A stretch of DNA of 41,406 nucleotides from a virus. Positions 6,208 through 34,067 of the stretch are shown here, piece after piece. The notes under the pieces are model-generated. The model was not told the DNA's origin and made no database searches. It saw nothing but the letters and a program-made list of their open reading frames with translations. The position numbers were made by a program, and so were the translations under genes. Positions within the stretch are counted from its first letter, which is position 1. Each line of letters begins with the position of its first letter. The stretch is from the IMG/VR virus record IMGVR_UViG_3300042987_001812, positions 1 through 41,406 of that record. One strand, written 5' to 3'.

Positions 6208-6294
6208 ACTCTCATGGGCAGGCGAGGTTCCAACCCTCTCATAAGTCCCTCCCCTCCTATGCCTCTCAACGATGCACAAACCAGGAGGTCTCTT

Positions 6295-10534: not shown

Positions 10535-10792
10535 ATGGAAAATTTAAGAATCAGATGTCGTTCCTGTGGTAAGGAGATTGAAGGGCATCAAATTAAAACT
10601 GTAACTTGTGGTTGCCCTAATATGGCAACCATTCGTGGAGATAAGATTTCAGCAGTTGACTTATCGCAAATTGTTATGTTGAACTCTTATCATACAAAAA
10701 CAAAGTCTGGCGTTCTTACTAATGAAGATATTGCCTGGCAGGAAGAGCGTAGAAAAAGAAAAGTTAGACGATTAGATTTTGAAGTCCGTTGA
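10535..10792 (+). CDS. Small zinc-ribbon-like protein
   Basis: 85 residues. An N-terminal CRSCGKEIEG motif and a later TCGCPN motif form a CxxC...CxC pair likely to bind zinc. A basic tail follows (QEERRKRKVRRL). The likely role is nucleic-acid or protein binding; no family name is certain. Its 3' end overlaps the convergent endonuclease gene by 21 bases. Confidence 0.6.
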   Translation: MENLRIRCRSCGKEIEGHQIKTVTCGCPNMATIRGDKISAVDLSQIVMLNSYHTKTKSGVLTNEDIAWQEERRKRKVRRLDFEVR

Positions 10793-11395
10793 GGACTTAT
10801 TGGTTATTATATTTTTAATAATAGTTAAAACTTTTTTGAAGTTTTCTATTTTGTTATACTTCATCCAAGAAGTATCAATAATACAAAGTTCTATATTTTT
10901 TTCCAGACACGCTTGAAATTTTCTTTCATCGTTATTTTGTATTTGCTTTAATTTTTCTTCACCATAAATTAGTTCGTAATGAAAAATACCATTCAATTCA
11001 AATGCTAAATTAATTTCTGGAATGTAAATATCTAACTCTGAATTAATAGTATCTTTTCTATTGAAGTGAAAGTCAAAATTATATTCTTGACTTAACTGTT
11101 CTTGTAAAAATACTTCGAGTTTTGATACTCTAGTTCCATTTGTTTTGTGGGTATTATTATAAGTCGCAGCACAACTTCTAGAACAAAAATGGTTTTTTGT
11201 TTTCTTTTGTTCTGCCGGAACTTTATGAAAACTTTTATTGCAATTCTTACATTTTACAAAGTTTTTTTCTTTTTCTTTAATTTGATATTTCTTATGACAT
11301 TTTTTAGAGCAAAAATGATTGCCTTTTCCCCTTTTAACTTCATATGGTAATTTTTGAAAAAGTGTGCTACAATTTAGACAAGTTACATCAACCAT
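10772..11395 (-). CDS. Zinc-finger plus Vsr-like (EDxHD/PD-(D/E)xK) homing endonuclease
   Basis: 207 residues. Two N-terminal Cys zinc fingers (TCLNCSTLFQKLPYE...FCSKKCHKKY and VKCKNCNKSFHKVP...FCSRSCAATY) act as DNA-binding modules. The C-terminal nuclease domain reads ELDIYIPEINLAFELNGIFH then ERKFQACLEKNIELCIID. This is the pattern of very-short-patch-repair-like homing endonucleases. It is convergent to its neighbours, overlaps the 3' end of the zinc-ribbon gene, and has its own late promoter. It is a free-standing mobile element. Confidence 0.8.
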   Translation of the reverse strand: MVDVTCLNCSTLFQKLPYEVKRGKGNHFCSKKCHKKYQIKEKEKNFVKCKNCNKSFHKVPAEQKKTKNHFCSRSCAATYNNTHKTNGTRVSKLEVFLQEQLSQEYNFDFHFNRKDTINSELDIYIPEINLAFELNGIFHYELIYGEEKLKQIQNNDERKFQACLEKNIELCIIDTSWMKYNKIENFKKVLTIIKNIITNKSSTDFKI

Positions 11396-13434: not shown

Positions 13435-13565
13435 GTGGTGGAGCCAATCCCCAATATGCCCGTGATGGAGACACGTTAACAATCCTGGTGCGGATGGGAT
13501 AACTCCCGCCCAGTTTCTTGCTTCTGGTCAAAGAGCAAGTGGCGAGCCTGCATAAACTGAGTAGA
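13435..13565 (+). ncRNA. Candidate structured RNA
   Basis: No gene fits here. The stretch can fold: CAGTTT (about 13511) and AAACTG (about 13554) enclose a perfect hairpin CTTGCT/AGCAAG, preceded by a GGG/CCC hairpin and a GTG/CAC hairpin. It is followed by a terminator. I match it to no known RNA family. A transcript leader or a small phage RNA is possible. Confidence 0.35.
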
Positions 13566-27654: not shown

Positions 27655-27830
27655 GTAATCAAATGAGGGGAGCAACCCGTTCCTTGACCTTGAAATCCTT
27701 GCTGAAACGGGTCTAATCACCTTACCGAGACTAAGCAAGTAAAAGATGTCTCTCATGTCTCAGGATGAGGGTGCCTGAGAAATAAGTATCTCCACCATTT
27801 CCCTGATGGACCTACTTACTTTTAAACAAA
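27655..27830 (+). ncRNA. Structured psbA 5' leader
   Basis: Three good hairpins: ACCCGTT (27675-27681) with AACGGGT (27706-27712); TCTCAGG (27758-27764) with CCTGAGA (27774-27780); AAGTA (27784) with TACTT (27813) enclosing CCAT/ATGG. PhotoRC motifs are known RNA elements upstream of psbA in marine cyanobacteria and cyanophages, and this may be a member. I could not match the consensus. Confidence 0.5.
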
Positions 27831-32438
<4,608 letters not shown>

Positions 32439-32466
32439 GTTTCTTAAAAACTGAATAATAATCAAA

Positions 32467-32491
32467 GAGACCTTTACAGGTCTCTTTTTTT
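32467..32491 (+). terminator. psbA terminator
   Basis: GAGACCT/AGGTCTC stem, four-base loop and seven T, 29 bases after the D1 stop. Confidence 0.9.
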
Positions 32492-32502
32492 ATGGTATTA
32501 TC

Positions 32503-32510
32503 TATAAATA
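32503..32510 (+). promoter_or_regulatory. Late promoter of the EndoVII-like gene
   Basis: Exact TATAAATA, 26 bases upstream of the ATG at 32536. Confidence 0.65.
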
Positions 32511-32535: not shown

Positions 32536-32904
32536 ATGAAAGTTTGTTCTAGTTGCAACCAAGAATTACCTGTCACAGAATTTCATAAAAGAACTTATTC
32601 TTCAGGAAATTTAGGTCTTCAACCAAAATGTAAAAAATGCTCTACAAATAATCGTAGGCAATACTATAAACCTCATGAGTTTATGCGACGAAAGTTTTCT
32701 CTTACAGAAGACCAATATAATAACTTGATGTCTAATAAAAATTGTCAAATATGTGATGCAGAACTAACCAAGAAGTGTATTGACCACTGCCACTCTACAA
32801 ATAAAATTCGTGGTGTTCTCTGTAACAACTGCAACACTGCACTTGGGCTTGTAGGAGACAATATCAACACTCTTCAAAAAATGATAGAGTATCTAAATAA
32901 TTAA
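32536..32904 (+). CDS. EndoVII-like HNH homing endonuclease next to psbA
   Basis: 122 residues. An N-terminal zinc-binding pair (KVCSSCNQELPVTEF, KCKKCSTNNRR) is followed by the recombination-endonuclease VII-type core ICDAELTKKCIDHCHSTNKI then GVLCNNCNTALGLVGDN, with the DHCH catalytic motif. Free-standing with its own late promoter, 98 bases beyond the psbA stop. A free-standing endonuclease adjacent to psbA that cuts at a psbA intron site (F-CphI) has been described in cyanophage; this gene occupies the equivalent place. It may cut psbA and mobilise an intron lacking its own enzyme. Confidence 0.82.
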   Translation: MKVCSSCNQELPVTEFHKRTYSSGNLGLQPKCKKCSTNNRRQYYKPHEFMRRKFSLTEDQYNNLMSNKNCQICDAELTKKCIDHCHSTNKIRGVLCNNCNTALGLVGDNINTLQKMIEYLNN

Positions 32905-32914
32905 AAAAAGAAAG

Positions 32915-33253
32915 ATGAAGACTTTCAGACAATTCATTAAAGAATCTAGAAAATATCAATACTCGGGGGATGATTCATATAAGTCCATGCATGATCCAGA
33001 AAGTGGAGTAACATTTAATAGTTTTAAAGGTGATAACAATACACATCATGTTTCATTTGATTCTGATGAAACTAAAGATCCAAAAACAAGAAGAAGAAAT
33101 GCCTTAAGAGCAAGGCAAATGGGGAAAGAATTTATTAAACAGCATCCAAAAGGATCTACTATAGAAGTTAGTCCCAATAGTGAAAAATTGAGAAAAATTT
33201 ATGCTAAACATGGATTTTCTGATACTCGCCCATTTATGAAGTTAAAAGTATAA
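32915..33253 (+). CDS. Protein of unknown function with phage-type MKTFRQFI start
   Basis: 112 residues. The N-terminus MKTFRQFIKES is a leader-like motif I associate with several T4-like cyanophage proteins. The second half (ARQMGKEFIKQHPKGSTIEV, KLRKIYAKHGFSDTRPFMKL) looks like the C-terminal part of a GNAT acetyltransferase, but no acetyl-CoA loop is visible. It starts 10 bases after the endonuclease stop. Confidence 0.55.
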   Translation: MKTFRQFIKESRKYQYSGDDSYKSMHDPESGVTFNSFKGDNNTHHVSFDSDETKDPKTRRRNALRARQMGKEFIKQHPKGSTIEVSPNSEKLRKIYAKHGFSDTRPFMKLKV

Positions 33254-33695: not shown

Positions 33696-34067
33696 ATGGG
33701 ACCTTTACACTCTCCAAAAGAATACTTGTTTAATTTACACGCAACAAGTTCTGGGGAGGCAAAACGATTATGGAGGCAACACATAAAAGAGCAATGGAAT
33801 CATCAGTGTGCTTATTGTGGGTCTGGAGACAATTTAACAATCGACCACATCGTACCAAGGTCAAAAGGGGGCACAGATTTCTCTAAGAATGTAGTTTGCT
33901 GTTGTCATGATTGTAACCAGTCAAAGGGACATGAACACTGGAAACTATGGTACGTTCAACAAGATTTTTATAGTGAAGAAAGATTTGATAAGATAGAGGA
34001 GTGGATGAAACCAGACCCACCGACGAATCTGTTTGCTTATCGTTCAAGAAGAAATAATGCGTCTTGA
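33696..34067 (+). CDS. HNH endonuclease (McrA-like zinc type)
   Basis: 123 residues. A compact HNH domain: CAYCGSGDNLTIDHIVPRSK, GGTDFSKNVVCCCHDCNQSK, with two CxxC-type zinc pairs and the DH catalytic pair. The flanks are MGPLHSPKEYLFNL and a Pro-rich end. I recall this arrangement as a conserved cyanophage gene rather than a sporadic homing enzyme. A role in DNA packaging, degradation or mobility cannot be separated. Confidence 0.82.
   Translation: MGPLHSPKEYLFNLHATSSGEAKRLWRQHIKEQWNHQCAYCGSGDNLTIDHIVPRSKGGTDFSKNVVCCCHDCNQSKGHEHWKLWYVQQDFYSEERFDKIEEWMKPDPPTNLFAYRSRRNNAS

Follow-up and report, generated by a model that had tools for sequence, protein, structure and literature searches.

The window analysed here is the whole 41,406-nt stretch of IMG/VR virus record IMGVR_UViG_3300042987_001812, which carries on its plus strand a psbA gene split by nine group I introns and, downstream of it, a free-standing gene for an EndoVII-type nuclease. 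The features considered in this work are listed below.

27831..32438, plus strand: psbA (D1, 359 aa), split by nine group I introns (from spliced alignment and Rfam cores)
28402..29219, plus strand: intron 2 (after nt 317), with its own 223-aa ORF at 28462-29133 (weak HNH / PHROG 655 homing endonuclease match)
30394..31286, plus strand: intron 6 (after nt 645), with its own 205-aa HNH ORF at 30509-31126
31532..31758, plus strand: intron 7 (after nt 890), ORF-less
31862..32114, plus strand: intron 8 (after CDS nt 993), 253 nt, ORF-less; introns at this site in other loci mostly accompany a 235-aa NUMOD3-bearing nuclease
32115..32132, plus strand: 18-nt mini-exon CATGAACGCAACGCCCAT between introns 8 and 9 (CDS 994-1011, encoding HERNAH)
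32133..32369, plus strand: intron 9 (after CDS nt 1011), 237 nt, ORF-less
32370..32438, plus strand: last psbA exon with the stop codon, on the 3' side of the predicted nuclease target
32464..32487, plus strand: intrinsic-terminator-like hairpin between psbA and the nuclease gene
32504..32510, plus strand: ATAAATA, a T4-type late-promoter-like motif whose position is conserved in related loci
32536..32904, plus strand: free-standing EndoVII-type nuclease gene, 122 aa, ATG to TAA
Nuclease residues C4, C7, C32 and C35: N-terminal zinc ribbon
Nuclease residues C70, C73, D83, H84, H86, R92, C96, C99 and N100: C-terminal EndoVII motif (CX2C, DH.H, R, CX2CN)

A spliced protein-to-DNA alignment, made under the group I rule that the exon ends in T and the intron in G, gave an unbroken D1 reading frame of 359 aa once the nine introns had been removed. 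These follow CDS nt 179, 317, 499, 556, 570, 645, 890, 993 and 1011, and group I cores reached the Rfam gathering score in eight of the nine, intron 6 (nt 645) scoring below it. ORFs were found in introns 2 and 6, and the other seven introns are endonuclease-free. Nine introns is the highest number among 281 near-complete psbA loci, the next highest being four (the odd alignment of L284 left out). Intron 5 (site 570, 29959-30318) measures 360 nt, whereas its counterparts in loci L330 and L371 reach about 800 nt and contain an ORF; the window copy holds a short reading frame of about 40 aa that may be a remnant. Directly 5' of psbA lies a PhotoRC-II RNA (27685-27793; Rfam, above gathering score). 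Elsewhere in the window an abiF RNA (6253-6289) and a wcaG RNA (13459-13553) also scored above gathering, and an ORF on the minus strand (10772-11395, 207 aa) matched a MYM-type (FCS) zinc finger (E = 2e-8).

The nuclease gene starts about 100 nt past the end of psbA, with the hairpin and the ATAAATA motif in between. A late promoter was rejected on window counts alone, 21 copies of ATAAATA being found against 20 expected by chance, and was accepted only because of its conserved position: the motif is present in the psbA-nuclease spacer of 74 of 78 related loci, against 5% of shuffled spacers, and nearly always lies 31-34 nt 5' of the nuclease start codon. The late promoter of the nuclease gene is thus probably real. 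The next two larger ORFs 3' of the nuclease are located at 32915-33253 (112 aa, no family match) and 33696-34067 (HNH endonuclease-like).

The encoded protein matched Pfam Endonuclease_7 (PF02945) with an E-value of 4e-18, exceeding the curated cut-off, and PHROG 2633 (endonuclease VII; 7e-34). The Pfam match spans residues 50-122 of 122, placing the EndoVII motif at the C-terminus, and the residues of this motif are invariant across 25 sequences, F-CphI among them, with all catalytic and zinc residues present in the nuclease. A dN/dS of 0.07-0.14 against the nearest relatives denotes purifying selection, and hence a maintained gene and protein. The fold, modelled with proteins of the window and of viral contigs as the only input, had a mean pLDDT of 90 and a pTM of 0.56. 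Hpy99I (PDB 3fc3) was the best PDB match by sequence and by fold and the sole strong match of the model (E = 7.5e-6), with a poor global superposition (TM 0.44) that leaves the domain packing of the model uncertain. HA2 chains in the match table were weak chance matches and were disregarded.

The match to Hpy99I, which has in common with the nuclease a zinc ribbon and an EndoVII-like beta-beta-alpha-Me fold, would suit a restriction enzyme or some other nuclease that does not act on psbA. Hpy99I, however, is a restriction enzyme beside a methylase (PMC6083498), whereas no DNA methyltransferase was seen adjoining the nuclease, the next two larger downstream ORFs being one without a family match and one of HNH type; this, together with the linkage to psbA, renders the restriction identity extremely unlikely. 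A Holliday-junction resolvase, or a general phage EndoVII adjoining psbA by chance, would also account for the catalytic motif and family name held in common with T4 gp49. Yet in gp49 the EndoVII motif is N-terminal and a C-terminal domain comes after it, whereas the nuclease has its motif at the C-terminus and stops at residue 122, without a gp49-like C-terminal domain. A C-terminal motif behind an N-terminal zinc ribbon is the layout of the endonuclease clade and not of the resolvase clade (PMC6083498), and since the link to psbA recurs in dozens of phages, a resolvase that is there by chance is hardly credible. Both identities were rejected because layout and neighbours do not fit. The earlier note on this DNA had described a free-standing EndoVII-like endonuclease with its own late promoter just 3' of the psbA terminator, and seven endonuclease-free introns in psbA, and had cited F-CphI as a cyanophage precedent; gene coordinates, family, position behind the hairpin, intron count and the F-CphI-like order of terminator, conserved late-promoter motif and nuclease all agree with the present results, the promoter as a probable one.

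Among IMG/VR relatives with at least 62% identity to the nuclease, psbA is directly adjacent wherever the contig reaches that far, whereas relatives below about 40% identity are mostly without an adjacent psbA. In Synechococcus phage S-SKS1 (NC_020851), an endonuclease VII that is 75% identical (YP_007674393.1) also directly follows psbA, which unlike that of the window has no introns and encodes Arg334 by AGG and Ala336 by GCC. The tree of psbA-linked EndoVII proteins placed the nuclease in a clade of 24 rows (support 100/100) in which intron-bearing and intronless carriers are mixed, and which stands apart from the F-CphI clade. F-CphI, from cyanophage S-PM2, resembles the nuclease in its C-terminal EndoVII motif, its N-terminal zinc ribbon, its gene position directly after psbA and the presence of an ORF-less group I intron near the psbA 3' end, and differs in sequence (37-38% identity) and in its separate, supported clade. 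F-CphI-type genes are paired almost strictly with an intron at nt 1002 (41/42 of the intron-bearing loci), whereas the nuclease clade is found with introns at 993, 1002, 1008 or 993 plus 1011, and mostly with intronless, recoded psbA. Even an identical enzyme occurs with different introns, at 1008 in loci L030 and L033 and at 993 in L034. Because most close relatives of the nuclease adjoin an intronless psbA with a silently recoded Arg334, the gene is not dependent on an intron. The nuclease is a psbA-linked enzyme of EndoVII type that differs from F-CphI, and its carriers exchange introns or rely on silent recoding.

Two loci show the nuclease tail-to-tail with psbA, on the opposite strand (L015, 1921-2283; L016, 6948-7310); psbA is intronless with AGA at Arg334 in both, and in L016 the psbA 3' end occurs once more beyond the nuclease gene. 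In four other loci (L110, L112, L125 and L141) an EndoVII relative of 173-174 aa with an extra N-terminal repeat follows a psbA that has an intron at 890 and in some cases another at 1008.

The introns near the end of psbA form a group of their own. In the loci examined they sit at four sites, CDS nt 993, 1002, 1008 and 1011, around the HERNAH codons, and across 225 non-identical loci none of 100 introns at these sites held an ORF of at least 120 aa, against 31 of 49 upstream psbA introns. The upstream sites (179, 317, 548, 556, 570 and 645) are occupied by both long ORF-bearing and short ORF-less forms, and only short introns occupy 890, 993, 1002, 1008 and 1011. In an unselected sample, retrieved by psbA sequence, a free-standing nuclease gene adjoined psbA in 14/14 loci with a 3'-cluster intron vs 20/96 without one (p = 8e-9), a count that is partly post hoc since some of the 'other' nucleases were recognised only from intron-bearing loci. 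In separate scans, a NUMOD3-bearing nuclease of 235 aa was found 3' of psbA, mostly with a 993 intron (L092, L149, L309-L322), and a 202-aa relative of it with a 1008 intron of about 258 nt (L122, L337-L376). A GIY-YIG-looking protein accompanies a 1002 intron in L162.

Intron 8 of the window (993) shares 94-96% identity with introns from loci that have the 235-aa nuclease, and its arrival may have been linked to a nuclease other than the one studied here. L011, L322 and L330 have introns that match intron 9 (1011) at 96-97% identity, and psbA exons that match at only 73-80%; for L330, an F-CphI-type carrier, the values are 96.6% for the intron and 73% for the upstream exons. Such high intron identity between phages with diverged psbA indicates recent intron transfer.

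The earlier note had further proposed that the nuclease could mobilise one or several of the ORF-less psbA introns. That several are mobilised would be compatible with seven introns being devoid of ORFs, and with the intron at site 890 being ORF-less in 13/13 loci having one. At sites 179, 556 and 570, however, other phages have introns of 700-900 nt with an ORF, so that the introns there possess, or once possessed, endonucleases of their own; the distances between the sites are also large, and no introns but those of the 3' cluster go together with the nuclease. We thus find the mobilisation of several introns very unlikely. The widest version, with all nine introns as partners, was rejected on account of the ORF-bearing upstream versions. 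Introns 2 and 6, each with its own ORF, have a mobility independent of the nuclease, and intron 7 is probably carried along with the 3' cluster. What stands of the proposal is a single region, at about nt 1000-1011, in which intron 9 is the most likely partner and shield judging from its position and relatives, possibly together with intron 8. The locus holds a free-standing nuclease gene next to these two ORF-less group I introns (253 and 237 nt), the arrangement required for collaborative homing. This process is known from few examples, namely F-CphI in S-PM2 and a T7-like case (PMC10448857, PMC3984707). Other free-standing nucleases acting on a neighbouring gene are T4 MobE, in the trans homing of the nrdB intron, and SegF/SegG, in intronless homing (PMC2988022, PMC6083498), which unlike the nuclease belong to the HNH and GIY-YIG families and have other target genes.

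We predict the target to be psbA nt 1000-1011, approximately, with the mini-exon as its core, since natural variation at nt 1000-1008 marks a region near the 3' intron sites. In the mini-exon, Arg334 (nt 1000-1002) is encoded by CGC, a codon of the predicted cleavable type. Within the nuclease clade, Arg334 is CGY in 9/9 carriers with an intron at 1002, 1008 or 1011, a set of sites picked after two 993-only loci had been seen with AGR, and in 0/18 carriers without one (17 AGR, 1 CGA; p = 2e-7, a Fisher value inflated, like the others, by the relatedness of the sequences). F-CphI-type carriers are partitioned in the same way, with CGY in 42/42 loci with an intron vs 0/4 without (p = 6e-6). The CGT of 1002-intron carriers, and with it part of the contrast within carriers, is forced to some extent, because an intron at 1002 probably depends on a T at that position to form its 5' splice site. 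F-CphI-type contigs that seemed intronless with a psbA match starting at residue 334 were truncated inside the 1002 intron and had been removed. When all 1077 CDS positions were scanned within carriers, nt 1002 ranked first (7e-17) and nt 1000 second (8e-14), the next value being 6e-6.

The informative contrasts are therefore those between intronless carriers and non-carriers, and the cases with introns at 1008 or 1011. Arg334 is AGR in 15/16 intronless carriers vs 22/76 (29%) intronless nuclease-free phages, CGY in 0/16 vs 49/76, and Ala336 is GCA in 13/16 vs 15/76. At the other nine conserved arginines of psbA no AGR codon was found in carriers, so the AGR at Arg334 does not reflect general codon usage. 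The intronless psbA of S-BM4, which F-CphI is reported to cut (PMC6083498), reads CACGAGCGCAACGCTCAC, with CGC at Arg334 and GCT at Ala336, the predicted sensitive form. In cyanobacterial genomes (L377-L456), Arg334 is CGY in 78/79 host psbA copies, and no 3'-cluster intron was found in the genomes sampled; having a sensitive codon and no intron at the site, host psbA may also be cut. From this partition we infer a resistance signature, in which the target would be protected either by an intron within it or by silent recoding.

Shared descent could produce a similar pattern. In a hitchhiking scenario the nuclease would merely be linked to a psbA 3' haplotype, by descent or co-conversion, with AGR as a passenger; the enzyme might cut at another place, such as the spacer between psbA and psbD in non-carriers, and the gene would spread by intronless homing. 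In its favour, significant associations were also found at the nearby 3' sites 984, 1017, 1021 and 1059 and at 888, pointing to some 3' haplotype linkage, and the tests corrected for relatedness rest on few independent pairs. On the nuclease tree, 5/5 supported independent pairs were in the expected direction (p = 0.06), and on the psbA tree about 3.4 pairs were for, 0 against and about 3.6 tied (p = 0.25), so that the codon association after correction is consistent but not significant. The codon rule is not followed by more distant psbA-linked EndoVII enzymes, with CGY in 6/15 of their intronless loci. The signal, however, peaks at nt 1000, 1002 and 1008 with no rise towards the nuclease gene, the third positions 996, 999 and 1005 vary freely among carriers, and both AGA and AGG occur. 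Moreover, the F-CphI clade, a separate one with the intron site as its known target, shows the same switch, and there the two recent intron-free tips L259 (AGA) and L264 (CGA) lie among intron-bearing neighbours with CGT. Taken with these observations, hitchhiking alone appears improbable. The association at nt 888 lies near the 890 intron site, and some carriers have unusual codons at 888-891.

The gene adjoining psbA thus probably encodes a DNA-cutting enzyme aimed at a short stretch near the psbA end. We consider it likely, from the comparison of these loci, that it is a site-specific homing endonuclease of the EndoVII fold (DHHRN) that cuts unshielded psbA at about nt 1000-1011 and spreads with or without an intron. 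The enzyme would recognise the 3' end of intronless psbA at the HERNAH codons (CAY GAR CGY AAY GCN CAY), and the psbA of a co-infecting phage would be cut if it had neither an intron nor resistant codons at the target. Repair from the carrier copy would then transfer the psbA 3' end, any intron at the site and the neighbouring nuclease gene. With an intron present this would amount to collaborative homing and, with the intron absent, to intronless homing, both within one clade. The phage of the window would follow the intron route, having kept CGC, with its target split by intron 9 (1011) in addition to intron 8 (993).

A broader proposal, to which we give an even chance, is that the last 20 or so coding bases of psbA are a battleground of at least three free-standing nuclease lineages (the nuclease clade, F-CphI and the NUMOD3-bearing nucleases of 202-246 aa) and of introns at four sites (993, 1002, 1008 and 1011), where carriers would switch between protection by an intron and protection by silent codons, introns would act as interchangeable shields and not as fixed partners, and the synonymous codon used for one arginine of psbA would be set by the competition of nucleases in co-infecting phages. 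No report of phages resisting homing endonucleases through synonymous changes came up in a literature search with all terms combined, which does not show that there is none.

Should the partition between codon and intron hold, these phages would provide a large natural set of paired nucleases with resistant and sensitive targets, predicting the bases that the enzyme reads, and the pattern of shielding by intron or by recoding makes intron spread directly testable. It would also show how a nuclease persists without its intron, explain why introns at the 3' end of psbA never have an endonuclease of their own, and offer selection as a reason why a synonymous codon in psbA is conserved.
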